Below are positions 3,648 through 64,000 of a stretch of 64,000 nt of DNA, piece after piece; the first letter of the stretch is position 1, and the number at the start of each line of letters is the position of its first letter. The stretch spans positions 180,585,956 to 180,649,955 of the forward strand of contig CP136063.1 of assembly GCA_032622095.1 (NCBI GenBank). The letters are read 5' to 3'. The notes under the pieces were generated by a model. That model saw only the letters and a list, made by a program, of their open reading frames with translations. It was not told where the DNA came from and made no database searches. A program made the position numbers and the translations under genes. Source of the DNA: Siphonodentalium dalli. Taxonomy: Eukaryota; Mollusca; Scaphopoda; Gadilida; Siphonodentaliidae.

Positions 3648-3956
3648 ATAATGGTAGATCCCTTCTGTGTCAATATTCGAACCCATGTTCAGACTGATAC
3701 GCTTCTCAACTCTCTGTGAAAGTGCTTCCTTTAAAAGGATGGACGGTCGTGGATAAGATCATCGTAGTCTGGGCTAGACGACGTTGATGCGGGTTCGAAC
3801 CCCGACATGGGCGAAAATGGGGACTGATTTGCAAGCTTTATCTAACAACATGGACATCTCATTGTGACAATCCGATCGATACATGGCCACTTCGATAAAA
3901 ATGAGAATTTGTTCACGCTCACTGAATCAAGTCATACTGAGTCCGTGCCTCCATAA
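3648..3956 (+). mobile_element. tRNA-like SINE, copy 1
   Basis: The segment contains a canonical pol III B box, GGGTTCGAACCCC, at 3791-3803. About 30 bp upstream is a GTCGTGGATAAGATC...TCTGGGCTAGACGA block. The tail includes CATCTCATTGTGACAATCC, GAGAATTTGTTCAC and ends GAGTCCGTGCCTCCATAA. Copies with the same order occur at 28110-28446 and 42978-43329, and the left edge ATAATGGTAGATC is shared with the latter. The tRNA-like part sits over 100 bp inside the conserved left edge, which is unusual for a simple 5'-tRNA SINE and may mean the unit is composite. Confidence 0.75.
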
Positions 3957-4264
3957 CCCTGATAAATATATTCACGAGTATTCACAATTTAAGATAAGTT
4001 ATTTCAATGAAAATTAAACTGCCGATCGTCTCCGAGCTAACATTCGGCGGAAGTTTTTGCGAGACGGGGTCACCGACTCACCGACTTATTACGCCACAAA
4101 GTGGTGTAAGCTGTATTACAGTTTTTCATGTCCGAGCGGACGATCGATAATCCAATGGGCGAATGTATTATGGTTAGGTATTTCGTACTTGAGTATAAAC
4201 CGTACCGATAGAGTGACGATAGTCCAACAAAGATTAGCACATGTGTTTACGTCACCGGTGTAAT

Positions 4265-4612
4265 TGTGGGGACATGTTTCTATTATGAAGGTTCGCTATC
4301 CTGAAGGTCCACTATTCTGAAGGTTCTCTATTCTGAATACTTGCTATTTCAAAGGTTCACTATTCCGAAGGTTCGCTATTCCGAAGGTTCTCTATTCCGA
4401 AGGTTTTTGTTATTTTTCGATTAATTCTATATTCTAAAGTATTGAATTATCACGAAGATTCTTTTTATGGAGTGTGCGCTCACATCCGAACTGATCCTGC
4501 GCGCATACCGATACAGATACAGGAGGAAATAACTTAGAACATTAAATGTGATTTTGTTTTCGCGGGTTTTCTTGAGATTTAATGTGATTACGTGGGCCCA
4601 TACCTTTGAATT
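4265..4612 (+). mobile_element. CCGAAGG-array element, copy 2
   Basis: The left edge GGGGACATGTTTCTATT is followed by about eight 16-bp units to 4405. The right flank shared with copies 1 and 3 follows (TTCTATATTCTAAAGTATTG; TTTTCGCGGGTTTTCTTGAG). The right part is interrupted near 4480-4520 by sequence absent from the other copies. It is followed by a GGGCCCATACCTTTGAA segment that repeats at 4753, so copies 2 and 3 arose by local direct duplication. Confidence 0.7.
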
Positions 4613-4789: not shown

Positions 4790-5160
4790 ATATTGGGGGG
4801 CATGTCTCTATTCCGAAGGTTCACTGTCCCGAAGGTACACTATTCCGAAATTTCTCTGAATGTTCGCTATTCCGAAGGTTCACCAATCCGAAGGTTCGTT
4901 ATTCCGAAGGTTCTCTATTCCGAAGGTTTTTGTTATTTTAAGGTTAATGCTATATTCTAAAGTATTGAGAGGGTTCATTATCACGAAGATTCTTTTTATG
5001 AAGGAAATAACTTAAAACATTAAATGTGATTTTGTTTTGTTTTCGCGGGTTTTCTTGAGTTGAATGTCATTACGTATGACCTTATTTCTCATTACATATT
5101 CACGCCAAGCAGCCCACACAATTGATATTATAGCCTAACTGCAATTGTGACTTTGTTTAA
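4790..5160 (+). mobile_element. CCGAAGG-array element, copy 3
   Basis: The left edge GGGGGGCATGTCTCTATT leads into about nine 16-bp units (4810-4930), then the shared right flank, including GCAGCCCACACAATTG and CTAACTGCAATTGTGACT, both also present after copy 1. As in copy 1 it is followed by the AGGCCCA MITE, here at 5161 after a shorter gap. The two loci are therefore parallel copies of the same element plus MITE arrangement. Confidence 0.7.
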
Positions 5161-25759: not shown

Positions 25760-28109
25760 CGGACTCGGGTTGCACTACAACTTTTAATGCGTCCAAAACA
25801 ACCGGAGTCGGAGTCGCACTACAACTTTTAATGCGTCCCAAAAAATTTCTGCAACATAATACACCCGAGGGGCGTAATAACACTCGGGACATTCAAATAA
25901 AAAGTAGTCCGTCAGCAATATAGTGATTGTATTTCGACGAGTCTGAAATAGGTTAGCCGATTTGACGAAAATGACGATTGCAGATTTACAAGATAACTTT
26001 TCTGGTGTATGAGTGGTAAATCCTAAACGTATCTACGCAACAGTAATTGTGCTCAGTCTTTTTCTCCCCACAATCTGATTACATGGGAATTGACGGTAGA
26101 AATTCAAAGGTCTCAGATTTTTGATTGGTCACTTGGAAACCTTGCAGGATAACCGCAGTTATTCTCTTTGAAGAATAATCTATACGAACTATAGGTAATT
26201 GCGCATCCCTTTGATCATGTACGCTGTTCGTAGACATACGACCATAAACTGTGTGATATAATATGCCTTTGTTTTTCCAAAGCCTAAGTTCTCTTGGATG
26301 CGATGATGTCTGGTGAATATTATTATATATATCGGTTCTTGTCTCGTGAAGTAGACTTGTTAGACGGTGGATGACTAAGCCATGGTATAACGGTCTAGTG
26401 CTGATCCACCCCTGGTCAAGTGGTCCTGGCAATTTGCTAGCGAGATGATTTATTAGCAAATAGGCATATGTTATACAAGACCATGCTGTTGGCGCTGTTC
26501 ATGCTGAATTGATATGATGCTGGTGGGACAAATTGATGCTGTTAAGGAAAGTTTCGTTATAATTTCTGAAGTTTTCAGGCATTTCTTTATGACATTAAGT
26601 ACAAGCTATTAATGTGACACCATATTTAAGATATTAACCCATTTCAAATTATAACCTCATTTACTTCACTTTTATAATATGGAATGAACAATATTTTAAA
26701 TTGGATTGTTTTCAAATACCAAGAACTTATGTAAAATAGATCTTTTTTCAAAAGTGCAATTCTTATGTTCATGATATCTGAAGATCATGGGAAACTTAAT
26801 TATTCTTGGTTCGTGAAATTTACTTGTTTTCATTCAGAAAGGCAGATAACTACCAATAACTAATTGTCTATATATAGAATTGTCATGTCATGCCTGTTGG
26901 TCAGTGATGAATTGGGCTGAGATGAGTTCTAGGTCATACGTCCATAACCAAGTTAAAGCTGACCACTATATCCTCTTAATACTGTGGCATAACGCCAGTT
27001 GATTGCCCCTGCTTGACCACATTGCATGTCAACATTTGTTATCATTGTGCTGGAATATTTATGACTGCTTTATTCGTCATTATAATATATGGGGGTATGA
27101 TACTATATTATGCAATTAAAAATCTAACTCAACATTATGATACAACTCCTCCCATAGAGCCAAGACAACAAGCTTTTTCGTTGTGAGTGGAGTGTTGTGT
27201 GAAATTATTAATTATCATAGCAGTTCTTGGTACCGAAAGGGACCAATACAAAATAATATTTTCATCCTCTCAAATGTATTAAAATCCATTGTTTATATCG
27301 TCTCTTGATAATTGCTCAGATTCGATATACAATGCAGATGCTGATATGTGAAATTCAAGATTTTTCGCCAGATAGATCCAGATAAATTCTTTGTTGAGAA
27401 TCTCTTGCCATTCTTGGCTGGATTTATGTAAAACGAGAGTCTCCCCTTAACGGCAACACAACGAGTTGCCGTATATCGATGCACGTACATATAAGCATGA
27501 CCACGTGTGTTTAACCCTTTGGAGAGTATCTGTATCGTCATACACATGACGTCATGGGTAAATTTAACGTCAACATCATAGAAATAATTAGTAACAAGTT
27601 CGATCAAAATGGTCCAATAATTCATTTTAATTTAGGTGCATTTTTTTGTTAACGTGTGTTATCATAATCGATTGCACTTATACATTTGGGACATTATATT
27701 AATCAAAATAACTCCTATACAAATAATTTATAAATCAGATGATTTATTGAAGTTATGTCTACATAAAATAACACTTCCTAAAACGACATATATGTCGTTC
27801 TACTCCTCAACCGATAGACGACATATATGTCGTTCTACTCACCGAAGAGTTAAAAATTATATATCATTGGATCTGCGAAGAAGCTAACATCTGTCTGCTG
27901 TCTAAATTTCTAAAATCAGATAACTTCCATTCCTTCCGGCATGATAAACTGAGTAAATGGATTGTTTCTTCGTCAAACGTGCCACATTATTTCATAATTA
28001 TGCAAATCAAATGCTTCATGCTTTAACGGCACGTCATATGTATAAAGTCAAATGCTAGATGGAGACATCCCCAATGCCCATGACGTGTCGGGCTAATATA
28101 TATACGTGT
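25760..28109. other. Gene-free stretch
   Basis: A small repeat sits at the start: GCACTACAACTTTTAATGCG occurs at 25784 and again at 25813. Frames of 126 codons (26079-26459, minus) and 110 codons (27293-27625, minus) are not recognisable. ACGACATATATGTCGT, a 16-bp perfect palindrome followed by TCTACTC, occurs twice (27783-27805, 27818-27840). Confidence 0.5.
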
Positions 28110-28446
28110 GTGAATATTCTAACCCATGTTAATTCCGACTGATGCGCTTCCCAAACTTGCTTACTTTTAATGATGTCCCCGCAGGCTGTAGCTGGTGTAG
28201 TTAGGTCGTGATATAAGATCGACGAGGTCTGGGCTAGACGAGGTTTGTTCGTGTTCGAGTGTTCGTACCCCGAGATGGGCGAAATTCGTAACAAATTGTC
28301 AAGCTTGGTCTGAGTTGAGGGACATCTCAATGTGCCATTCTGATCGATACATGGTCATTTCGATAATAAATGAGAATTTGTTCACTTCACTGAAACAAGC
28401 ACATGTGAAGCAATGAACACTCATTCTGAGTCCGTGCCTCCATAAA
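28110..28446 (+). mobile_element. tRNA-like SINE, copy 2
   Basis: An A-box-like TAGCTGGTGTAG lies at 28189-28200. A degenerate B-box region, GTGTTCGAGTGTTCG, lies near 28250-28264. Between them is AGGTCGTGATATAAGATC...TCTGGGCTAGACGAGG. The tail has GGGACATCTCAATGTGCCAT, GATCGATACATGG, GAGAATTTGTTCAC and ends GAGTCCGTGCCTCCATAA, as in copy 1. AGGT occurs on both sides of the inner block, the same block that is amplified in the 51.6-55.8-kb satellite. Confidence 0.8.
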
Positions 28447-42743: not shown

Positions 42744-42977
42744 CTTATATCTCACTGCTAAAACCTTATAATTCATGGGCAAGTATATAATAAAACACGA
42801 TATGTATATAATTGTGCGAGTAATCAGCCATGATATACGAATTGCTTGTGCTGATGCACCAAAGCTGTGCCTTGGTAAAAATTAAAAACTTATTCCTTCA
42901 CAGTATGGTCTTTGGAAAATATGAACGAATCAACAGACAGCCATTATACAGTATATATATATTGTGCTGTTCCAATA

Positions 42978-43329
42978 TAATGGTAGATCAGTGTGTTCTG
43001 TGTCAATATTCGAACCCATATTCAAACTGATACGCTTCCCAAGTTTCGATGAAAGAGCTTCATTTTTAAGGATGTCCCCGTAGCCGATGTGGTTATATGT
43101 CGTCGATAAGATCACCGCCGTCTGGTCTAGACGAGGTTGGCACGGGTTCCAACACCGACATGGACGAAAAAACCGGACAGAGTTTCAAGCTTGAACTGAG
43201 TTGAGAAACATCTCAATGTGTCATATCGATCGATTCGTGGCCATTTCGACATGAAGTGAGAATTTGTTCACGTTAACTGGAGCAAGCATTTTTGAAGCAA
43301 TGAACATTCATACCGAGTCACCCGTGTAA
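42978..43329 (+). mobile_element. tRNA-like SINE, copy 3
   Basis: The left edge ATAATGGTAGATC and TTCTGTGTCAATATTCGAAC match copy 1. An A-box-like TAGCCGATGTGGTTA lies at 43081-43095, the inner block GTCGTCGATAAGATCACCGC...TCTAGACGAGG follows, and a mutated B box CGGGTTCCAACACC lies at 43143-43156. The tail has ACATCTCAATGTGTCAT, GAGAATTTGTTCAC and AAGCAATGAACATTCATAC. It lacks the exact CCTCCATAA end of the other copies. Confidence 0.8.
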
Positions 43330-48730: not shown

Positions 48731-50394
48731 CTGGAAGGGGCTATCATGCATTTATGGCAACATACAATCCTATTTCTTCTTATTTCATTGTGGTCGTGTT
48801 CGATCATGAATATGTATTTATTTGTAGTAAATAGTTATATTACGTAGTGACATGAGTTAAATGTAAACTGAAGTTACCAGATTGATCAACCTTTACATGA
48901 AACAGTTCGTTATTATCTTTCTGTGTTATAAAGTAATTTATTACATGATCCTACCCTTATCCTTATCTGGGACCATTTCTTTACGCGGGCAAACTACCCA
49001 TTGTTACGTGAAACGTCATCGCATGCCTTATAGAAGCCGATGTTAATTTCGCTCCCGTTTATTGATTTAAGTATATTTTCCCGAGGTTTTGGATATTGTA
49101 ATAAATAGAATCTACAACTTGTAAATTAGACCTAGACCTCACCAAAGGCCCGGTCCAGACTGGACTCGTTTTGTAAATTCCGCAACAAACTGTGGACTCG
49201 TCGTAGATCCTCTATTTCTTGTGACTTATATGAATGTATACGCGTCTCAACTGAAACAGAAACGATCTAGGAACTTATTTATCGGTGGCGATGGAATGAA
49301 AGCCGACACCGAGGCAACTATTTGCTCATAAATCAGGTTCCGATCAAGTTTACAAGTAATTGACCGCCATTTCGCTTCTTTCTATCACTAGCAGCTTCTG
49401 TAATAACGTGCACATTGAAGCAATAAAAAGATCTGTCGTACATGGCCCGATGGGCGACATTTATAGTGGGTTCGAATGCACAAAAATAACTGGCGAGTCA
49501 GATAAGAAAATTAATGGACTTCCAATATTTAGATGATGATTTCCAAGGGAAACGCTGGTTGAATGCAATTTAAGAGAGGTTTCGCAAAATCACGGTTAAC
49601 AGTTCCGATTACAACTATAGGACACTACGTCACCTAGTTATACGTAAATTCTAACCATAACCGTTAATCCCTAACCGCCATAATTATAACGGATAGGGTT
49701 TCAATTTCTTCGATTTCTACCCAACAACTTCTTTTAAATATATATAGACACTCATTAACCTAGGCTTGTTGTATCATACATCCACCATCTATGAAACCTG
49801 CCGACTACCATGAGTTCACCAACACTATGTACATACAACACCTTAAGCAGGTCGCATCATGAGCGAATAAATGTTACAGTAGGGGTGCAGACATTCTTTT
49901 TCTCGTAGATTATATCGGCACGAACCATTTCATATACATGGCAGATACGTTGTACGCTATTGTCACTTTGACACATTAAGCAAGTTTTATTCGCTAGTTC
50001 ATAATTTAGGAGAAATATCGCATGAAAAGTCATAATTTACTCAGCACTTCTTCCAAAAAAAAGGGACAATTCCTGATTTTCTAGACAAATTTTGTTTAAT
50101 CTAGTAAACGAATGAATGTACTAGATATCCATATCAGTGGCATCAACATTTAATGTTGTGAGTTGCTAAATATCAGCGCTACCTGAAGCTTGCAATTATG
50201 TTGCATGTTCGGTGCCGAGATCAACGTAGGCTATTAAAGATACGGTAAGCGTAACAGCCATAAACAGAAAGATTAATATTATAATATAGACAAACTATGT
50301 TCTTGAACCAATCATAAATATCGCGTAAATTGCATGTTAATTTTGGTCATAATAGTACTCTGTTATGTAAACAAACGCCATGTTATGTAAACAA
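48731..50394. other. Gene-free stretch
   Basis: No frame over 60 codons and no repeat noted. TATGTAAACAAA occurs twice near 50360-50390, just outside the next element. Confidence 0.5.
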
Positions 50395-50602
50395 ATAGTA
50401 CGTAAAGAGTATGCAATAAGCAAAATAGTCAACACCGTGGAGGTCCTACTTAGAAATGCCACCAAGTTGTTTACGACATACCGGTATAGCGCTAGCTAAT
50501 CCTCGCCTTTCAAGATTCCGGTGTTGAATGGGTCACTGTGAATCACTCTCCTAAAACAATTACCACGGTGTTGAGTGTTTTGCTTATCGCTCACTATTTA
50601 CG
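50395..50602. mobile_element. Inverted-repeat element AAAGAGT, copy 2
   Basis: The left CGTAAAGAGTATGCAATAAG continues CAAAATAGTCAACACCGTGG. The right CCACGGTGTTGAGTGTTTTG continues CTTATCGCTCACTATTTACG. Downstream sequence to about 50760 (ATATAAACAAACGCTCGG; GGCCACCCATGC) also matches 42280-42400, so the repeated unit is longer than the hairpin. Confidence 0.75.
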
Positions 50603-50937
50603 TGATGTATATAAACAAACGCTCGGCTCACACACAGTATGTTTTGTGGATAATATCGCATTCATACTATCAGTATACTATACTGTTAGTATATTCTTGA
50701 GGAAATTTTCATAATTTGGTAACTGTTATCTCTAAATTATAGCATATAATGTAGGCCACCCATGCCTTTAAATACTTTATGCGAAGATTACAGTCATGCA
50801 ACACAGTCTGATTAAAATCCAGAGCGTTCCTTGTTATGTCTTCCTAATATGGTAGAAATAAAGAGCATTACTGAAATAATAGAAACAAGTTGGAAAATTT
50901 ACATGGCTTTGGCAAGTTTCTTTTGAGCATATACAGG

Positions 50938-51183
50938 GCCAGGAACCTATGTCACTAATGTAATCTCTAAACCGTCGCTCCAGACGATCAGGAACCTACG
51001 TCACTAATGTAATCTATAAACCGTCGCTCCAGACGATCAGGAACCTACGTCACTAATGTAATCTCTAAACCGTCGCTCCAGACTATCAGGAACCTACGTC
51101 ACTAATGTAATCTAAACCGTCGCTCCACACGATCAGGAATCTACGTCACTAATGTAATCTATAAACCGTCGCTCCAAACCGTC
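50938..51183 (+). repeat. 49-bp tandem repeat, five copies
   Basis: The unit AGGAACCTACGTCACTAATG, then TAATCTCTAAACCGTCGCTC and CAGACGATC, is highly conserved. One copy lacks four bases. Confidence 0.9.
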
Positions 51184-51650
51184 GGCTATATATAGTTGCT
51201 ACCTGGAACTCGTTCAGTTGACGAGCTGGACTCGTTCCTAGTGCTCAGCATCCTCTATACGCTAAGGCGCAACGTTATTCGGGGTGGAATTGCATGGAAC
51301 AGTGAGCGGAGCGTCTGAGCAAGGAATGGACGAGCTATATATGTGTCGCATGAGTTATTGACTTACGAGGGAAAGGAGTTATGTTCATTTTACGGACATC
51401 TAGTAAATGGTTTAGGTGCATGTGTTTGATGTTCAAAGTCGCGGCACAATCGATACCAATTTTCCTTGTAAATTGCAGTTATAAATACCAGTTTTTAACG
51501 ACTAGTGATTTGCGAATGTGTTTTGTAGATTTCCAGTGTTTCCATAACTAATGTACTATAGTTTATCACATCCACAATTTTTTTTATATTTGTTTAAACA
51601 ATCATTTTAAATCAAAACCTCTTTGGGTCGGAGACTTCGTGTATGTACGC
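51184..51650. other. Gene-free stretch before the large satellite
   Basis: Unique-looking sequence. No clear SINE left edge was found just before the array. Confidence 0.5.
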
Positions 51651-52973
51651 GGTTTGTACCCGTTGGAGGTCCTGCAATACATCGCAATATGGGCTAGACG
51701 ATGAGGTCGTGAATAACACCGCAATCTGGGCTAGGCGAGGAGGTCGTGAATAACACCGCAATCTGGGATAGACGAGGAGGTCGTGAATAACACCGCAATC
51801 TGGGCTAGGAGAGGAGGTCGTGAATAACGCAGCAACCTGGGTTAGACTAGGGGGTCGTGAATAACACCGCAATCTGGGCTAGGCGAGGAGGTCGTGAATA
51901 ACACCGCAATCTGGGCTAGACGGGGAGGTCATGAATAACACCGCAATCTGGGCTAGGCGAGGAGGTCGTGAATAACACAGCAATCTGGGCTAGGCGAGGA
52001 GGTCGTGAATAACACCGCAATCTGGGCTAGGCGAGGGGGTCGTGAATAACATCGCAATCTGGGTTAGACGAGGAGGTCGTGAATAACATCGCAATCTGGG
52101 TTAGACGAGGAGGTCGTGAATAACATCGCTATCTGGGCTTGGCGAGGAGGTCGTGAATAACATCACAATCTGGGCTAGGCGAGGAGGTAGTGCATATCAT
52201 CGCAATCTGGGCTAGGCGAGGAGGTAGTGCATATCATCGCAATCTGGGAAGAGGAGGTCGTATAAATAACATCGTAATCTGGGTTAGACGAGAAGGTCGT
52301 ATATTACACCGCTATCTGGGCTAGGCGAGGAGGTCGTGAATAACATCACAATCTGGGCTTGGCGAGGAGGTCGTATAAATGTCATCGCAATCTGGGTTAG
52401 ACGAGGAGGTCGTGAATAATATCCCAATCTGGGTTAGACGAGGAGGTCGTATATATAACATCGTAATCTGGGTTAGACGAGGAGGTCGTATATTACATCG
52501 CTATCTGGGCTAGGCGAGGAGGTAGTGCATATCATCGCAATATGGGAAGAGGAGGTCGTATAAATATCATCGCAATCTGGGCTAGGCGAGGGGGTCATGA
52601 ATAACATCACAAGCTGGGAAGAGGAGGTCGTTTAAATAACATCCACAATCTGGGATAGGCAAGGAGGTCGTGAATAATATCGCAATCTGGGCTAGACGAG
52701 GAGGTCGTATACATAACATCGCAATCTGGGCTAGACGAGGAGGTCGTATACATAACATCGCAATCTGATTTAGACGAGGAGGTCGTGAAGAGTATCGCAA
52801 TCTGGGCTAGACGAGGAGGTCGTATAAATAACACCGCAATCTGGGTTTGGCGAAGAGGTCGTGAATAACATCACAATCTGGGCTCGATGAGGAGGTCGTA
52901 TGTATAATATCGCAATCTGGGCTCGATGAGGAGGTCGTGAATAATATCGCAATCTGGGTTAGACGAGGAGGTC

Positions 52974-53928
52974 GTATGTATAATATCGCAATCTGGGTTA
53001 GACGAGGAGGTCGTGAATAACATCACAATCTGGGCTTGGCGAGGAGGTCGTATATATAACATCGCAATATGGGAAGAGGAGGTCGTATAAATAACATCAC
53101 AATCTGGGTTAGACGAGGAGGTCGTATGTATAATATCGCAATCTGGGTTAGACGAGGAGGTCGTGAATAACATCACAATCTGGGCTTGGCGAGGAGGTCG
53201 TATATATAACATCGCAATATGGGAAGAGGAGGTCGTATAAATAACATCGCAATCTGGGCTAGACGAGGAGGTCGTATAAATAACATCGCAATCTGATTTA
53301 GACGAGGAGGTCGTGAATAACATCACAATCTGGGCTCGACGAGGAGGTCGTATACATAACATCGCAATCTGATTTAGACGAGGAGGTCGTGAAGAGTATC
53401 GCAATCTGGGCTAGACGAGGAGGTCGTATAAATAACACCGCAATCTGGGTTTGGCGAAGAGGTCGTGAATAACATCACAATCTGGGCTCGATGAGGAGGT
53501 CGTATGTATAATATCGCAATCTGGGCTCGATGAGGAGGTCGTGAATAATATCGCAATCTGGGTTAGACGAGGAGGTCGTATGTATAATATCGCAATCTGG
53601 GTTAGACGAGGAGGTCGTGAATAACATCACAATCTGGGCTTGGCGAGGAGGTCGTATATATAACATCGCAATATGGGAAGAGGAGGTCGTATAAATAACA
53701 TCACAATCTGGGTTAGACGAGGAGGTCGTATGTATAATATCGCAATCTGGGTTAGACGAGGAGGTCGTGAATAACATCACAATCTGGGCTTGGCGAGGAG
53801 GTCGTATATATAACATCGCAATATGGGAAGAGGAGGTCGTATAAATGTCATCGCAATCTGGGTTAGACGAGGAGGTCGTGAATAATATCCCAATCTGGGT
53901 TAGACGAGGAGGTCGTATATATAACATC
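52974..53928 (+). repeat. Higher-order repeats inside the satellite (150 and 604 bp)
   Basis: GTCGTATGTATAATATCGCA recurs at offsets of 150 bp (GTATGTA at 52974 and 53124) and of exactly 604 bp (53578 and 53728). The block around 52770-53400 is duplicated at 53374-54000 with almost no differences, giving identical 60-codon frames at 52770-52952 and 53374-53556. This shows recent segmental amplification of groups of monomers. Confidence 0.85.
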
Positions 53929-54085
53929 GCAATCTGGGTTAGACGAGGAGGTCGTATAAATAGCATCGCAATCTGGGCTAGGACAGGAAGTCGTGGATAA
54001 CATCAGAAATGTGTGCTATGCGAGGTCGACAATTTTATGTGGGCAGTAGCCTCTATACGGGCGCCTGTGGCGCATAAGATACTAT

Positions 54086-54112
54086 GGGTGGTGGGATGGG
54101 GTGGTGGGTGGG
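54086..54112 (+). other. G-quadruplex-forming motif
   Basis: Five runs of three or more G lie within 27 bases (GGG, GGG, GGGG, GGG, GGG) separated by TGGT, AT, TGGT and T. It lies in the only non-satellite interruption of the array. Confidence 0.6.
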
Positions 54113-55897
54113 AACTCATTAAACGTATGTATAACATTGCAATCTGGGTTAGACGAGGAGGTCGTGAATAACATCACAATCTGGGTTAGACGAGGAGGTC
54201 GTATATATAACATCACAATCTGGGTTAGACGAGTAGGTCGTGAATTACACCACAATCTGGGCTAGGTGAGGAGGTCGTGAATAACATCGCAATCTGGGTT
54301 AGACGAGGAGGTCGTATAAATAACATCGCAATCTGGGTTAGACGAGGGGGTCGTGAATAACATCGCAATCTGGGCTTGGCGAGGAGGTCGTGAATAATAT
54401 CACAATCTGGGTTAGAGGAGGAGGATGTGAATAATATCGCAATCTGGGTTAGACGAGGAGGTCGTATGTATAACATCGCAATCTGGGTTAGACGAGGAGG
54501 TCGTATATATAACATCGCAATCTGGGTTAGACGAGGAGGTCGTGAATAGTATCACAATCTTGGAAGAGGAGGTCGTTTAAATAACATCTGCAATCTGGGC
54601 TTGGCGAGGAGGTCTTCAATATCATCAAAATATGAGCTAGACGAGGAGGTCGTATAAATAACGTCACAATCTGGGTTAGACGAGGAGGTCGTATAAATAA
54701 CATCACAATCTGGGTTAGACGAGGAGGTTGTGACTAACATCGCAATCTGGGTTAGACGAGGAGGATGTGACTAACATCGCAATCTGGGTTATACGAGGAG
54801 GTCGTATATATAACATCGCAATCTGGGTTAGACGAGGAGGTCGTGAATAACATCGCAATCTGGGTTATACGAGGAGGTCGTATATACAACATCGCAATCT
54901 GGGTTAGACGAGGAGGTCGTGAATAACATCACAATCTGGGCTAGGCGAGGAGGTCATGAATAACATCGCAATCTGGGTTAGACGAGGAGGTCATGAATAA
55001 CATCGCAATCTGGGTTAGACGAGGAGGTCGTGAATAACATCGCTAGGAGGTCGTATATATAACATCACAATATGGGCTAGGCGAGGAGGTCGTGAATAGT
55101 ATCACAATCTGGGAAGAGGAGGTCGTTTAAATAACATCCGCAATCTGGGTTAGACGAGGAGGTCGTATATATAACATCGCAATCTGTGTTAGACGAGGAG
55201 GTCGTATAAATAACATCACAATCTGGGTTAGACGAGGAGGTCGGGAATAACATCACAATCTGTGCTCGACGAGGAGGTCGTGAATAACATCACAATTTGG
55301 GCTAGGAGAGGAGGTCGTGAATAACATCAGAAATCTGTGCTAGGAGAGTTCGACAATAACGTAATCTGGGCTCGACGAGGAGGTCGTGTCACTAAAATCG
55401 CAATCTGGGCTAGGCGAGCAGGTCGGGAATAACATCACAATATGGGCCAGGCGAGGAGGTCGTGAATAACATCACAATCTGGGCTAGGCGAGGAGGGCGT
55501 GAATATCATCACAATCTGGGCTCGACGATGAGGTCGGGAGTAATATCGCAATTCGGGCTATAGACGAGGAGGTCGTATAAATTATATCACAATCTGGGCT
55601 AGGCGAGGAGGTCGTGATTAACATCGCAATCTGGGCTAGACGGGGAGGTCGTGAATAACCATATGGGCCAGGCCAGGAGGTCGTGAATAACATCGCAATC
55701 TGGGCTAGACGGGGAGGTCGTGAATAACCATATGGGCCAGGCCAGGAGGTCGTGAATAACATCGCAATCTGGGCTAGATGAGGCGGTGGTTTATTGGAAT
55801 GGAATTGCCTTATACAAGCCTGGGTTAACGCGAAACCCAGTACGAAACATGTATACATGCACTATTCAAACTATGGCTATAAGATCTAGTACGATAT

Positions 55898-56205
55898 TCA
55901 TCATCGCCATCGACATAATCGTCACCATCATCATCACATGATCATCCTCATCATATTAATCATCACCATCATCACAATCATCATCAGTAGCAGCATAACC
56001 ATTATCAGAATAATAATCATCATCTTTATCATCATTATTATTATCATCCTTCATCATCAACATCATCATCATAATCACTATCATCATCACCATAATCATC
56101 ATCATCATAATCTTCATCATAATCGTCGCCATCATCATAACCATCATCGTAACCATCATAATCATCATAATCATCATCATAATCATCATCATAATCACCT
56201 TATTC
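55898..56205 (+). repeat. (ATC)n microsatellite
   Basis: About 300 bp of ATC/ATT/ACC trinucleotides (CATCATCATAATCATCATC). It gives spurious frames rich in His and Ile on one strand and Met and Asp on the other. Confidence 0.95.
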
Positions 56206-56221
56206 ATCCTCAGCTTCCGTT

Positions 56222-56345
56222 TTAATCTCGACGTTGGCGAAAATCGGTTCCGATTTTCAATCTTCATCTGATTTGAGGGGCATTTCAATGTGCCATTCCG
56301 AACGAATGATTATTTCGATCAGTAATGGGAATTTGTTCCAGCACA
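56222..56345 (+). mobile_element. SINE tail following the satellite, copy 4
   Basis: GGCGAAAATCGGTTCCGATT, TTGAGGGGCATTTCAATGTG plus CCATTCCGA, ATTTCGATCAGTAATGGGAA and TTTGTTC match the tails of the SINE copies at 3648, 28110 and 42978 in order. It begins at CTCGACGTTGG, close to where the SINE passes from the amplified block to the B-box region. Confidence 0.8.
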
Positions 56346-56389
56346 TATACAAAGCACGTGATGACACCAAACTGAGTGCATCCACCCGT

Positions 56390-56619
56390 TCTGCATTACG
56401 AGTAGTTCCCATAGGAAATGTTCAGAAAATAAGTATGTTTTCGTTTGTTGAACTTATCATCTGAAGATTTCCCACCAATTAATATGAATCTTTGTGCACT
56501 TTTATTATATTTTCGTCTGTCTTATAGTTCCTAAACACACATCTAGAAGAATGATAGACCATTCCAATGTACACTTTTATAAATGGATGGGAGAATCCAT
56601 TTTGCAATTAGAGGGTTAA
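56390..56619 (-). mobile_element. piggyBac-like MITE, copy 5 (inverted)
   Basis: On the plus strand it reads ACGAGTAGTTCCCATAGG, then GAACTTATCATCTGAAGATT, CATTCCAATGTACACTTTTA and ends at AGAGGGTTAA. It lacks the right TIR, and its truncated end abuts the SINE tail. Confidence 0.75.
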
Positions 56620-58637
56620 ATAACATTAAGACTAGCGAACATCTGTATAAATTATGTTTCGTCACGCTGGAGAATCCAATACTGTCATATACGCAGCGGG
56701 AGAGAGGTCTTGGTTATTTCCTTGAGTGCGCTCTTGAAGGAATCCACTGAGTCGTTATTTGGTGGGGAATCTGGATTCAGAATCCGAATCCGATTACGGG
56801 GGCGGGGCTAATTCCCGATTCTAGGTCAGATTTTGAAATCCACGTGGTCTCCGATACAATGTGTAATGTTCTCCCAGCGTCAAACATGGCTCATGTATTT
56901 GACAAAAGTATCATTTGTATCTTATATTTATAAAGTTCCGACTTAATCGCATCTTTTTTTCAAGTTAAAGTGTGTTTATTGGTGAGGGCAAGCTTTTTTA
57001 ACAGCTCTAGGTCTCCTGAATCAAATTCCGAAGATGTTGTGAAGAACACACGAAACTTGTCAGTTGTACAGGTACGTGGCGACAGGGGTTGGTTGGGGTG
57101 TCTCGACCCCCCCCCCCCCAACTTTGGTACAATTTTCTTAGCTGTGCAGTCATTCATACGTGAGGATAATCAGGATTCTTTTGACTAACTGTTCCAAATA
57201 ATGATACGTACAAGCCAGCAAACGCAACAAACAAACCCGATTTTAAATAAATACATATACAAACTTATGACTAACTCGGGAGAGAGGGTGACCGGTGATC
57301 TGTATATATATTCAACTTGTTTTGGTAGTCATGTTGCTTTGCCATTACTAATGATATATTTTTTCAGTGTAATAACATATGGGAGATTAGGTACCCTTAG
57401 TGAGTCAGCACTTGTCCTCCAAATCCATTGTATATATAAACAAATGTATGTGTTATATATCATGTGTTATCTAAATTTGACAAATATTTGAAATAAATAT
57501 GTTTAAACTAAACTTTAGTACATTTCCAGCAGTTGGAAAATGCATGCATGACACAACATTAGTTGGACATTAATTTGACACCATATATAGGTTGTTCTCA
57601 TTGTTTGATTTTGTCAATCAGTAAAGTTGGTAATTTTCCAATCTTAGTGTGTGTCAGGTTGGATATTTCCAAGGGGGCCAAATGGAATTCTGCGAACCTG
57701 TGAGATTGATGTTTGGTTCAATGTGGGGGGGGGGGTGCAGTTGGCCGGAAATTTGAGGAAACCTCTAGCCACGTCCCTAGAACTTGTACGTGTGGGTACT
57801 TAATCAATAAATTGACTGACATTTCCACTATATAGTCCTGAGATCCTAGAATAAGCTTTACATTTGTGTTTGTGCGATTGGGAGATGCAGTTCACCTGCG
57901 ATCGCAAGACCACAACATTAGCTTCATGAGCAAAGCTTTATTTTCCAACTATTGTACAGCACGTTGGCCAAAAAATGCCTGTGTTTGTGCACTATACAGA
58001 GACTATTGTGCAAAACGACTGCATTTAACGAAACAAAATATTTTAAACATGAAATTGCTATAAGACTAGATAGTACATACGTGTATCTGATAATCCATCG
58101 ATATCATATAATCCTACTATTTCTTGAATAAGAAGAAACATTATAATAACGAACAAAGCAGAAGACATATCCATGCAGGTTCACATGCATTCGGTCAATG
58201 GTGACGTATCCGCCGAATTTGAAATCGACATGCGTTCGGGCGGTATTTTATGGATGGAATTATGAAATGGACATATGAAAGTGACAATGAAATCGACAAT
58301 GATTTGCTTCGCCATCACCCGAAGCGCTTCCCCAGCGTTACTATCAATAGCGTTATTATTTGGCTAATTTCAGTAATATTATCCCAGTTTACACTCGATA
58401 AAACAAATTTGTCTCCGCATTTAAAATTCTTTGATATAGATCGTTTATATTCTGCAATAATTTGTACACAAGGGACGGATTCTTATGTTTTATTGTGTTT
58501 TTAAACTCCGAGGTGGCGAAATCTCGGTTTGTTTACATTACGAACATTTGAGTCCGTAATCGGAATCCGAATCCGAATCTGGATTACCACGAGATTATGA
58601 TTACGGTCTGTTCGTTTACTAATTTTGGTCTGTTCGT
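56620..58637. other. Gene-free stretch with a short LINE-like echo
   Basis: At 56725-56800 the plus strand encodes LKESTESLFGGESGF. Its DNA (GAGTCGTTATTTGGTGGGGA) mirrors, inverted, the end of the LINE at 58690-58704. AATCCGAATCCGAATC words recur at 56785 and 58565. Poly-C (57109-57119) and poly-G (57726-57735) tracts are present. No gene is recognised. Confidence 0.5.
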
Positions 58638-59330: not shown

Positions 59331-59743
59331 ATATGTTCATATCCATCATCATATATCGTGTTTTATGCGTGCCGCCTCCTGCGGGAGGAAAGTGAACATC
59401 CGGGTACTCTCTTCTAATTAATCGATTGTGGAGTCAAGTCGTTGTCTGAATGGTCTCTTGCCAATAGACCCAAATAATTACATAGCAGTACGGTGTAGAC
59501 CAAACAACGATTGGCACGATTGTCAACATATGAAGAGAAGCAAATGACCCCGACTTTCCATGAGTAGTCGAAATTTTCATCTGAAAAACAACTTGTCAGA
59601 ACAAATGCTGAAAAACAACATGGCAACCGAAGCCGAAGAACGTGGCGAAAAATGTTTGGTGAATATCTGAAGGCACTGTCATTCTGAGGAAACTGTTTAA
59701 ATACACCTAAAGGAAAGTTCAAGAATACAAAAAAAAAACAGGT

Positions 59744-60350
59744 ATGAGTTCCCGAAGACCTCTGGGAAATAATAACTTAAATGAAGACATAGAAAAGAAC
59801 TGAAAAACCTTCACTTATCAATTTGAACTATTTCTGAAAGCAAAGGGGAGGAAATGAATGAAAAACGGAAAGTGGCTACATTGCTAACGATAGCTGGAAA
59901 ACGAGCGGTTAAAATTTTAAATTCTTTCAAATTTACAAAAGCTAGGGATGAATTTAAGTGCAAAACGGTGAAGGACAAATTTGAAGAATACTTTGTGCCA
60001 ACACAAAATGAAAGTTACATCTTTCGTAATCGACAGAAAAAAGATGGGGAAAATTACGACTCATACTTTGCTGAACTCAGATTATTAGCAAGAACATATA
60101 ACTATGAAGATACAGAAGATGTAATGCTCCGAGATAAAAATCGTTTTTGGTATCAACGACAAACTCATGACAATTTGTAAAGCGAATGAAAAAGCATACA
60201 AACAGCTACTTGTATTTGACAATCCAAGTTCGTCACATTCACAAGAAGATTCTGATGTCTCTTCGTATGTAAGACCGAAGATTCCAAAGAAGAAAATGAA
60301 TTATGACCCATCCAGTGTATGCAAATTGTGTTCAAATTCGCATCGTTGTC
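59744..60350 (+). pseudogene. Ty3/gypsy-type gag fragment, broken
   Basis: From ATG 59744 the frame reads MSSRRPLGNNNLNEDIEKN, a TGA where Trp is usual, then KTFTYQFELFLKAKG. A frameshift leads to the 108-codon frame 59854-60180, with KVATLLTIAGKRAVKILNSF, KFEEYFVPTQNESYIFRNRQ and GENYDSYFAELRLLART. Another shift leads to LMTICKANEKAYKQLL (from about 60160) and ends at CKLCSNSH, the start of a zinc knuckle. This order is that of gag proteins of K02A2.6-like Ty3/gypsy elements of invertebrates. Protease, reverse transcriptase and LTRs are not seen; the gag is cut off by the CCGAAG array that begins next. It is inactive. Confidence 0.8.
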
Positions 60351-60620
60351 AGACCGATTCTCCGAAGACCTATTACTACGAAGGCCCACAACTCCGAAGA
60401 CCCGATTCTTCGACGGTCCACAACTCCGAAGACCCGATTCTCCGACGGCCCATAACTCCGAAGATCCGATTCTCCGAAAGCCCATAACTCCGAAGGGCCG
60501 ATTCTCCGAAGACCTATAACTCCGAAGACCTATAACTCCGAAGGGCCGATTCTCCGAAGACCTATAACTCCGAAGGCCCGATTTTCCGACGGCCCATAAC
60601 TCCGAAGGTCCGATTCTCCG
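60351..60620 (+). repeat. CCGAAG/CTCCGAAGA array, block A
   Basis: About 16 units of 16-18 bp (CCCATAACTCCGAAGA, CCGATTCTCCGAAGA and variants). The motif is related to, but longer and more GC-rich than, the arrays at 158-4930. The overlapping 106-codon frames on both strands are repeat artefacts. Confidence 0.9.
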
Positions 60621-60950
60621 AAGATTTTGTTTTATCGGGGTATTATCGTTTACTAAATAGTGTACAGTCCAGTGGCGAAGCCAAGGGGTCCCAAAATTCC
60701 TACTACTTAAACCTCTACTTAATTGCTATTTCAGACAATATGGGCCCCTACCAAAACATGTCCAATGTCATGTAAACGCCCGGAAATCGTTCATGGGGCA
60801 TAAAAATATTCGAACTTTTCCTACTGCCCCCACCTTAATGGGAATCCTGGCCCGCCACTGACTATACACCAGATACTATAACGTTACGTTGGCCCATGAG
60901 ATGCCAGAGTAAAATGTACAGGGGTGAACGGGGAAGAACTTGTCCTTTTT
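60621..60950 (+). mobile_element. Element body attached to array A
   Basis: TTTTGTTTTATCGGGGTATT, ACTAAATAGTGTACAGTCCA, GTGGCGAAGCCAAGGGG, AACATGTCCAATGTCATGTA and GGAACGGGGAAGAACTTGTC-like text. It is repeated at 61542-61862 (direct) and about 61925-62252 (inverted and diverged). Confidence 0.85.
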
Positions 60951-61229
60951 CATATATAAAATGAACTTGATTGCATCAAATCACCCCAATGCAGTCGGAT
61001 GTGCACAGTTTAATCATATTAATTGTATTAAGACGTACAGTGTGGCAAAATAATTGTATTTCTTACATAAATTTAAGCATTCTGTGGAAAATTAAGGCTT
61101 GTCGCACACTACTGATGGTGTAGATATCACATTATTATAATACATAGTTAACGTTTCCAATATATGAGGGCCCCTTCCCCCCTTTTCGTACGCCGGATTC
61201 CACCCATTTTGGACCCGTACGCCGGATTC

Positions 61230-61541
61230 CGGTGTCAGACCGGTTTTCCGAAGACCTATTACTACGAAGACCCACAACTCCGAAGACCCGATTCTCCGAC
61301 GGCCCACAACTCCGAAGACCCGATTCTCCGACGGCCCATAACTCCGAAGACCCGATTCTCCGCCGGCCCATAACTCCGAAGATCCGATTCTCCGAAAGCC
61401 CATAACTCCGAAGGGCCGATTCTCTGAAGACCTATAACTCCGAAGACCTATAACTCCGAAGGGCCGATTCTCCGAAGACCTATAACTCCGAAGGCCCGAT
61501 TCTCCGACAGCCCATAACTCCGAAGGTCCGATTCTCCGAAG
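61230..61541 (+). repeat. CCGAAG array, block B
   Basis: About 18 units, almost a copy of block A with the same order of variant units. It begins in GTCAGACCGGTTTTCCGAAG, parallel to GTCAGACCGATTCTCCGAAG of block A. It is preceded by GCCGGATTCC words also found at 62519-62650. Confidence 0.9.
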
Positions 61542-61862
61542 ATTTTGTTTTATCGGGGTATTATCGTTTACTAAATAGTGTACAGTCCAGTGGCGAAGCC
61601 AAGGGGTCCCAAAATTCCCACTGCCCCATTAAACCTCTACTTGCTATTTCAGACAATATGGGCCCCTACCAAAACATGTCCAATGTCATGTAAACGCCCG
61701 GAAATCGTTCATGGGGCATCAAAATATTCAAACTTTTCCTACTGCCCCCACCTAAATGGGAATCCTGGCCCGCCACTGACTATACACCAGATAATATAAC
61801 GTTACGTTGGCCCATGAGATGCCAGAGTAAAATGTACAGGGGAGAACGGGGAAGAACTTGTC
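61542..61862 (+). mobile_element. Element body attached to array B
   Basis: Direct repeat of 60621-60950 with about 95% identity by eye; it contains an insertion of CACTGCCCC and lacks a few bases elsewhere. Confidence 0.85.
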
Positions 61863-61924
61863 GCCCCTGTGCATGTTAGGCTACTCTGACATTCTTGCAG
61901 CGTTTCGTTATAATATACCCGGTG

Positions 61925-62252
61925 CACACCAGTGGCGGAGCCAGGGTTCCCATTTAGGGGTGCACATTAATTAGCATATTTGGGGGATATGTGGGGGATA
62001 TATCATGCATATGATATGCCGAAAGCATATCACGAAGGCCTGATTTGGGGAGCGCATACATGGGAGGGGTCGCCCCCAAACGTTGGTCCGGGGGCTCCCC
62101 TGGGCAGGAACACTGTGAATATTTGAATGCCTAGGAGGGATTTCCTGACGTTTACATGACATTTGACATGTTTTTTGGAGGCGGTCTTCCCTAGGGCCCC
62201 ATTGACCCCGCCACTGGACTGTACACTATTTAATAAGCGATAAAACATGATC
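61925..62252 (-). mobile_element. Element body, inverted diverged copy
   Basis: Read on the minus strand: ATGTTTTATCGCTTATTAAA, TAGTGTACAGTCCAGTGGCG, AACATGTCAAATGTCATGTA and AACGTCAGGAAATCCCTC. It matches the bodies of blocks A and B. The part near 61985-62110 has no partner here. Confidence 0.75.
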
Positions 62253-62510
62253 TTCGGAGAATCGGTTCTTCGGAGAATCGGACCTTCGGAGAATCGGCCC
62301 TTCGGAGTTATAGACCTTCGGAGTTATGGGCGTTCGGAGTTATAGGCCTTCGGAGTTATGGGCTTTCGGAGTTATGGGTCTTCGGAGTTATGGGATTTCG
62401 GAGAATCGGGACTTCGGAGTTATGGGCTTTCGGAGAATCGGGGCGTCGGAGAATCTGACCTTCGGAGAATCGGACCTTCGGAGTTATGGGTCTTCGGAAA
62501 AACGCTACGT
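62253..62510 (-). repeat. CCGAAG array, block C (inverted)
   Basis: About 16 units in reverse complement (CTTCGGAGTTATGGG, CTTCGGAGAATCGG). With block B and the two bodies it forms a large imperfect palindrome, 61230-62510. Confidence 0.9.
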
Positions 62511-62518
62511 AACCCGGA

Positions 62519-62650
62519 TTCCAGACGTCAATTTGAAGCTGGACGCCGGATTCCAGGGTTAATTTGAAACTGGACGCCGGATTCCAGTGTCAATTTGAAG
62601 CTAGACGCCGGATTCCATGGTAAAATTGAAGCTGGATTCCGGATTCCAGG
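62519..62650 (+). repeat. ~32-bp tandem repeat, about four copies
   Basis: The unit GGACGCCGGATTCCAG followed by GGTTAATTTGAAACT. The last unit is altered (GCTGGATTCCGGATTCC). Single GCCGGATTCC words occur also at 61190-61230. Confidence 0.8.
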
Positions 62651-62693
62651 GGGGGATATATTATCTACATGTACATGTTCCATACAAAATAGT

Positions 62694-62829
62694 TATGCGG
62701 ACCGGACCGCTTTGGACCGGTCCGGTCCGCGGTCCAGGGGTGGACCGCGGTCCAGTCCGGACCGGGTGTCACTGGACCGGACCGGACCGCTTTTTGCCGC
62801 CAGTCCGGTACTCTCCGGTCCGGTCCACT
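62694..62829 (+). repeat. GGACCGGTCC-rich palindromic element, copy 1
   Basis: GC-rich, 136 bp, made of GGACCGGACCG, GGACCGGTCC and GGACCGCGGTCC words. A strong local dyad centres near 62740 (GGACCGCGGTCCA-GGGG-TGGACCGCGGTCC). It stands out against the AT-rich surroundings. Confidence 0.8.
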
Positions 62830-63795
62830 ATTTTACTTCAGTTATAATAAACTATCGCGAATATTATTTGGTTTTTGCCGTCATATCAATTAGCAACGAT
62901 GTATTGACGCATTCAAGTGGTTAATATCTATTAAACGTTTGAGTTTGATGCCACGCAAACAATGTATGGATGTACTTTGTACATGTCACTTTCCTTATGA
63001 AAGTGCCAGTGTGGGCGGCCGCCTGCTTTGATGTCGCCGAGTACCGGCCGCCTGCTTTGATGAAATTGATGTCGCAAAATGTTAAGCATTCTGAAAACAT
63101 TTTCAAAATATAAAAATTGCTTGTTTCGTTCTAAATTGTTTTTAATAACTACTATCCTACATTGGCCAACGCTTTGTAGCACCATATCAATGCGACAAAC
63201 ATGCAACTGAATGAGTATGGAACTATTTGTCATAAACAGTGTAACATGGCATCAACTAATCAATTTGGATGGATATCGAATCGAGTATTCTATTGTTTTT
63301 CACAGTTATAATTATCGAAGAAACATGCAAACCACATTACATAGTACATATACAAGACAGTCACATTAATCCAATAGTAGTTGTACTTAGGTATATATAT
63401 CTTTATTTGCTCCCCATCTAGGAGAGTATGTTTTACCACAAAAAAAATTATAGCAATAATACAGAGAAGACAATAGATAATAATAGTATAGTGATTTCGT
63501 TTAAATTTCAATTTAATGAAAATAAGTATGATACGAATCATACATACGAATAGTTGAGTGCCATGTTAGATTGGTTATAACACATTCTGACCCTAGCTAT
63601 ATATCTGTCCAATACATTTAATTAGTGCATGTTCGCATTACTAGAAATACTATTATCGTGCATCGTTCCCATTATATCCCACCATAGACAGACAATGATG
63701 CATACAATATGGACTCAGTAACCGTATAGGTTGTACTATACAGAGTAACACTTTGAGAAAACAGAGAATTCATTAACATATAGCCTACTATAGGT
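62830..63795. other. Gene-free stretch
   Basis: A small duplication GGCCGCCTGCTTTGATG lies at 63017 and 63046. The frames of 100 and 83 codons on the minus strand are unrecognised. Confidence 0.5.
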
Positions 63796-63902
63796 GGACC
63801 GGACCGTTTTGGACCGGTCCAGGCATGTGTCCCGGACCGGAATGGCCTGGACCGGACCGGACTGGACCGCCTTGGCAAGGTGGTCCGGTCCGGTCCGCAT
63901 CA
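63796..63902 (-). repeat. GGACCGGTCC-rich palindromic element, copy 2
   Basis: 107 bp of the same word family. Its right end GGTCCGGTCCGCAT is the complement of the left end of copy 1 (ATGCGGACCGGACC), so it lies in the opposite orientation. ORFs through it are not credible. Confidence 0.8.
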
Positions 63903-64000
63903 CTAATACAAAATATAGCCATACGCGCATTCCATACTTATCAATACACTCTAAGAATTGTGAAATTCCAAACGGTATTAGACCACCATTTTACCTCCAA

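Follow-up and report, generated by a model that had tools for sequence, protein, structure and literature searches.

Satellites built from parts of SINEs are known in squamates (sSats). According to the portion of Vassetzky et al. 2023 (PMC10702118) that bears on their structure, most of them keep an end of the SINE on one side, loci with few copies occur beside long ones, and full-length SINEs form tandems too; the authors regarded it as uncertain whether satellites of this sort occur outside squamates. A second case is PcH-sat of the limpet Patella caerulea, which, as far as the relevant part of Petraccioli et al. 2024 (PMC11121367) goes, has a 179-bp monomer with 118 bp of Nin-SINE, is mainly pericentromeric and makes up about 10% of the genome. 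In the mammalian SINE families Alu and B1, minisatellites have been explained by duplication of a motif lying between repeats of 5-10 bp, with slippage or unequal crossing-over as the mechanism (Haber and Louis 1998, cited in the review PMC6947457).

The satellite described here lies in a window of 64,000 nucleotides (C3:180585956-180649955 of an assembly of 2.23 Gb in 9 contigs; all positions below refer to the forward strand of this window unless a contig is named). Since SINE-derived satellites are already known in squamates and in the limpet, it is a well-documented further example and not a new kind of satellite. It differs from the squamate sSats, as they are described in the part of PMC10702118 used here, in that their units measure about 70-290 nt, whereas the unit of the window is 37 bp long and carries neither promoter box. 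Moreover, abundant sSat variants have a common unit at many loci, whereas the long array described here represents one duplicated locus. With PcH-sat it has in common that the monomer includes a portion of a tRNA-type SINE and lacks boxes A and B, but it shares neither the monomer size nor the mainly pericentromeric location and genome share of PcH-sat, and the relevant part of PMC11121367 describes no intermediate loci, unlike the series presented below. The parent SINE also differs from the mammalian Alu and B1 families. What the present genome offers is a graded series of one, two, about four and about one hundred blocks with part of the parent still attached, so that the initial step in the birth of a satellite, which is usually erased, becomes accessible to testing. 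Provided that the host is not a squamate, the window locus and its few-copy relatives form a further case.

The array was delimited by TRF at positions 51665-55787 (4.1 kb), with a period of 37 bp, 111.2 copies and 76% matches. Its segmentation gave 112 pieces, among which lengths of 37 bp (53 pieces) and 39 bp (35 pieces) prevailed; three pieces were non-monomeric and belonged to an interruption near 54005-54130, and one was a 7-bp remainder. These data bear out the 37-39-bp monomer and the 4.1-kb length that the initial annotation had read from the sequence. The monomer consensus, AGGTCGTGAATAACATCGCAATCTGGGCTAGACGAGG, corresponds to the part of the SINE that lies between its A and B boxes. 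Internal promoter boxes were scanned with the motifs TRGYNNARNNGG (A box) and GWTCRANNC (B box), and neither had a match in the array on either strand. Base shuffles of the array contained on average just 1.2 A-box and 0.7 B-box matches, so the missing boxes do not represent a depletion.

We describe the parent element as a tRNA-like SINE for which target-site duplications are unproven. Its consensus of about 400 bp was built from the three copies of the window and 20 of 41 listed matches, the ragged flanks being trimmed by hand, and it contains one A-box match (position 122) and two B-box matches (positions 185 and 266). The three unexpanded copies that had been pointed out near 3648, 28110 and 42978 were recovered by alignment and BLAST at about 3648-3971, 28107-28446 and 42961-43319, each with a single block; the second of them is also found in the inverted duplicate of the locus described below. 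The unduplicated junction sequence of the SINE occurred at 1779 genomic places at up to 3 mismatches (reversed control 0), a count that takes in tandem arrays of the whole element. The element is dispersed and many-copy and has internal A and B boxes, as is characteristic of tRNA-derived SINEs. In 9 of the 23 aligned copies the match to the query began only at position 84 or later, which looks as if 5' truncation were common, although a diverged head could mimic it. When ten loci were given to ARAGORN, tRNA-like folds were called in six units of L026 and one unit of L005, and in none of the other eight loci. Against the Rfam tRNA model the SINE matched in one of four loci given, at chance level (20.9 bits against a gathering threshold of 29, E 0.96). 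Among 45 SINE-matching loci no target-site duplications and no excess of flanking repeats were seen: a flank word of at least 8 bp was shared in one locus, away from the ends (null 3.5%), and the ends of old copies are uncertain. At C1:44.79 Mb, an apparent repeat of 18 bp flanking a tandem array was rejected as a target-site duplication, its right copy lying about 800 bp beyond the array.

The monomer of the array is derived from this SINE. Its consensus aligned to the SINE consensus with a local score of 56, which none of 1000 dinucleotide shuffles reached (maximum 32), and the matching SINE block sits directly behind the A box. This agrees with the claim of the initial annotation that the monomer is the block between the A-box and B-box regions. 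To the right of the array the SINE resumes in order at 56219-56384, from a degenerate B box onward, with a score of 170 (shuffle maximum 56, 0/1000). In the BLAST alignment 56219-56345 corresponded to SINE positions 185-314; the tail thus restarts at position 185, ten bases past the end of the block, and on inspection it ends about 20 bp before the 3' end of the consensus. The order of the tail, as first proposed, therefore stands, but the array is not followed immediately by the ATC microsatellite: a spacer of about 110 bp (55788-55897) had been overlooked. The query 55780-55900 matched only this place and the duplicated locus in a search that skips very common words. The ATC microsatellite itself was placed by TRF at 55898-56197 and is possibly an outgrowth of ATCATC in the SINE block. 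Together, spacer and microsatellite separate the array from the tail by about 430 bp. The locus combines the features by which a SINE-derived satellite is recognised, namely a monomer taken from part of a SINE, head-to-tail units numbering at least four (111.2 copies here) and SINE sequence that runs from the array toward a terminus, in this case after the 430-bp interruption.

On the left side no convincing SINE head was detected by alignment tests or by BLAST over 49000-51664, where the best match to the SINE was a 13-bp word (E 0.03). Shuffled sequences or random window pieces reached the score of a candidate head in 265 and 126 trials out of 1000 each and in 20% out of 5000. The similarity of TGTACCCGT to TGTCCCCGT of the SINE was rejected as a sign of a head, being equalled by 20% of random pieces of the window. 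The doubt already voiced about a head upstream of 51651 was thus justified, and the founder copy was probably 5'-truncated, which is the simplest account. The 7-bp word ACCCGTT occurs at both borders, adjoining the array start (51658-51664) and where the SINE tail ends (56384-56390), with a frequency of 1.0% under a tight null and 6.8% under a loose one. As no duplications were seen in the SINE family at large, this repeat remains a weak candidate for a target-site duplication.

At the stringency used, the satellite is confined to this locus and its duplicate. With up to 3 mismatches allowed, the monomer junction matched the genome 123 times, 46 times on the forward and 77 times on the reverse strand; 46 of the matches lie in the window array and 77 in a second locus, L001. 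Arrays that have diverged further would go undetected with this pattern, as happened with L040 (see below). Large arrays unlinked to SINE tails, which the initial annotation had named as evidence against its own reading, were accordingly not found at up to 3 mismatches. A query of six monomers also matched only the window array and L001, but the same search missed even single-block SINEs and so adds little. L001 is an inverted copy situated 1.82 Mb away on the same contig, the two loci lying at 180.6 and 182.5 Mb of 301.4 Mb. The spread over several loci or preference for subtelomeric positions, which is a tendency of known SINE-derived satellites and not part of their definition, was therefore not observed here. 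Homology between the window and L001 was found at 28097-28445, 50124-56938 and 59476-64000, the three stretches compared, and the flanks were 97.7-99.6% identical over aligned bases. The array of L001 measured 6.6 kb. Two probe pairs placed closer to the presumed centre did not support L001 as an arm of a continuous palindrome: the first was without a match, and the second gave short repeat matches only.

Copies of the SINE with intermediate numbers of blocks exist elsewhere in the genome. The gapped dimer pattern TAGACGAGG-N{0,25}-AGGTCGTG, searched genome-wide, gave 52 matches (reversed control 4), of which 42 fell in the two arrays, two in L040 and eight in other loci; all nine loci outside the arrays were examined. 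Eight of these were rejected as dimers, no second block being seen in the T-arm variants L036, L037, L038, L039 and L042 or in the A-box variants L041, L043 and L044. In the ninth, L040 (C5:17.11 Mb), the SINE comprises a remnant of the head, about four inner blocks, the B box and the tail, and a dedicated genome search for its junctions matched solely its own two. Among the 40 matches listed to part of L040, the best two, query aside, were L065 and L064. At L065 (C1:7.99 Mb) there are 4.2 copies of a 45-bp unit with 94% matches, followed by the SINE tail and without a head. L064 (C4:288.04 Mb) contains 2.0 copies of a 46-bp unit and, in addition, a 105-bp tail unit repeated at least 3.6 times. 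L045 (C5:97.36 Mb) has 2.9 copies of a 71-bp unit, which starts behind the A box and reaches the B box. The SINE copies with two, three or more blocks that the initial annotation had proposed to look for are thus represented by two (L064), about four (L040) and 4.2 (L065) blocks. The expansions at L040, L065, L064 and L045 are independent of the window array. As they came from targeted searches they yield no frequency, and they look rare against the 1779 places with the unduplicated junction. In its layout L065 resembles the window locus on a small scale.

In the main SINE consensus the block is bracketed by the direct repeats CGAGGT (45 bp apart), GGTT (42 bp) and AGGT (37 bp). The period of L065 equals the CGAGGT spacing, and the matched junctions of L040 are spaced by 44 bp. 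The junction of the window array reads GACGAGG/AGGTCG, and its AGG-AGGTCG does not directly fit any of these three words. A pair of repeats that would give this junction occurs in a more diverged and probably older SINE subfamily with the arm AGGTCGTGGGTTCGA before the B box. With up to 2 mismatches allowed, the arm matched 24 times at 22 loci (reversed control 0), three of the matches being in L045, and the subfamily consensus was made from the 21 loci without L045 plus L036; these loci were chosen by the arm itself, and L050, L061, L062 and others match the SINE over short stretches only. In this consensus GTCGTGG stands on both sides of the block, 40 bp apart. Aligned with the satellite 37-mer, the 40-bp unit between the AGGTCGTG words agrees in 35 of 40 columns, the remainder being 2 mismatches and 3 gap positions. 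Shuffles matched the 6-bp and 7-bp direct repeats of the region in 60% and 21% of cases, and words of this length are no rarer here than in shuffled sequence; a 9-bp form of the repeat, reached in 1.3% of shuffles, is composed from two consensuses. Among the loci checked, which carry the arm or a close variant, 7 bp were shared with the word behind the A box only in L037 and L055, and 9 bp in none. As few present copies keep both GTCGTGG words, we put the chance that these repeats were the seed at about even.

The start suggested in the initial annotation, slippage on the AGGT repeats, finds part of its basis in the data: these 4-bp repeats do have a spacing of 37 bp in the main consensus, equal to the array period, and in its middle part the monomer is slightly closer to the main consensus than to the subfamily, the unit predicted from GTCGTGG scoring 30.0 with the main-consensus middle and 28.5 with that of the subfamily. 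However, such a slip predicts the junction GACG/AGGTCG instead of the one observed, and the unit it produces scored 24.0. Together with an AGG duplication at the junction and a 3-bp loss it would also lead to 37 bp, at the cost of two extra 3-bp changes. The pure slip junction was present at one genomic place at up to 3 mismatches, L022, a broken SINE at C2:67.74 Mb, which was rejected as a slip-born dimer in the absence of a second full block. An AGGT seed with a subsequent AGG duplication thus seems rather unlikely to us. The data show that the monomer comes from the SINE, that the parts follow in SINE order, that the satellite is confined to the two loci at the stringency used, and that intermediates and block duplications exist; the seed repeat, the truncation and the order of events are what we infer. 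A probably 5'-truncated copy of the diverged subfamily would have been the founder, with its stretch from the A to the B box, whose position in the tRNA-like head is that of the anticodon and variable arms, bracketed by GTCGTGG as a 40-bp unit. Slippage or unequal exchange between these repeats would have duplicated the stretch, a loss of 3 bp would have reduced the unit to 37 bp, and repeated unequal exchange, later involving blocks of several monomers, may have raised the number to about 111 copies, leaving the B box and tail on the right behind the spacer and the microsatellite.

Taken as a whole, this birth from one SINE copy, with the GTCGTGG seed held at about even odds, is our best explanation of the locus and quite probable. 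The missing head upstream and the roughly 430 bp between array and tail speak against birth in place and would suit a SINE inserted beside or into an unrelated, pre-existing minisatellite. The monomer itself, however, is SINE sequence and is the part that the remnant lacks between the A and B boxes, and the junction search at up to 3 mismatches found no other array genome-wide, which makes such an insertion highly improbable. Hardly any more credible is an origin from a real tRNA gene or pseudogene instead of a SINE: the block is tRNA-like and ARAGORN called seven units in 2 of the 10 loci given, but the 166 bp downstream are SINE body and not the flank of a tRNA gene, and the Rfam match stayed at chance level. 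The identity of the flanks also allows L001 to be read as an unmerged haplotype and not a duplication, in which case there would be one array only. Against this, L001 is inverted and 1.82 Mb off within one contig, and the two inner probe pairs gave the results described above; we regard it as a plausible reading that falls somewhat short of probable, and it is compatible with the origin from one SINE copy. The initial proposal of one SINE copy whose inner block expanded more than 100-fold is therefore supported by the derivation of the monomer, its restriction to this locus and the intermediates. It is conceivable, though we think doubtful, that the head of a tRNA-derived SINE acts as a built-in satellite nursery, in which CGAGGT, GGTT, AGGT and GTCGTGG bracket the segment between the boxes and permit recurrent duplication, each word with its own period (45, 42-44 and 37-40 bp), with an occasional runaway to a hundred units. 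If this were general, the SINE heads of many animals would show the same series.

The later growth of the array can be followed in the two copies of the locus. In the diagonal scan of the window array a multi-monomer block of 567 bp (52710-53276) was found duplicated 604 bp further on (copy at about 53314-53880) with 98.6% identity. Nothing corresponding to the non-monomeric interruption near 54005-54130 was seen in L001, where no 15-mer of 54031-54120 was present. The array of L001, in turn, showed a 1106-bp period repeated about three times, with neighbours 99.5% identical. Later growth thus proceeded by duplication of multi-monomer blocks, and as these duplications differ between the window array and L001, they arose most likely after the locus had been copied.

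Tandem amplification was also found to involve the entire SINE, the dispersed tRNA-like element with A and B boxes from which the 37/39-bp array is derived. Head-to-tail arrays of the complete element, all of one subfamily and with a unit of 421-433 bp, were detected at the genomic loci L023, L024, L025, L026 and L029, and the array at L023 (C1:26752700-26758300) comprised 11.2 units with 100% matches. The whole-SINE array at 100.19 Mb of contig C2 accounted for at least 21 matches among those listed. In all five whole-SINE arrays whose ends were examined, the array started within the element, as judged by the match to the L023 unit, and in four of the five the final unit stopped at the SINE 3' end. 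Such arrays could represent an inserted 5'-truncated multimer, or they could have grown out of one truncated and one complete copy of the SINE. In this subfamily, the units of L023 and L026 additionally carried a second B-box-like word, GGGTTCGAACCCATG, in the 5' part upstream of the tRNA-like head; this word may be left over from a further tRNA-like module.

Partial duplications were observed within other SINE copies. A tail segment was tandemly repeated at L046 (78 bp, 3.0 copies; C3:215343200-215346200) and at L064 (105 bp, at least 3.6 copies, with 20-bp subrepeats; C4:288044100-288045200), and a perfect 55-bp duplication (2.1 copies, 100% matches) was located around the A-box region of the copy at L055 (C3:158868550-158869400).

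Piecewise comparison revealed that C3:182449500-182495978 and positions 28097-64000 of the window are inverted copies located 1.82 Mb apart, spanning about 36 kb of the window and reaching its right end. Towards the left end, the duplication was not found at the single place tried. The second copy is either a real duplication or an unmerged haplotype. Inspection of its sequence by eye indicated that it also contains the 49-bp tandem repeat (4.9 copies, 50940-51176) that lies a short distance upstream of the 37/39-bp array. Elsewhere in the window, several 16/32-bp arrays based on CTCCGAAG / CTTCGGAG occurred in both orientations at 60354-62498, and further 16-bp arrays of GAAGGTTCGCTATTCC or its complement were located at 169-290, 1747-1831, 4287-4405 and 4808-4928.
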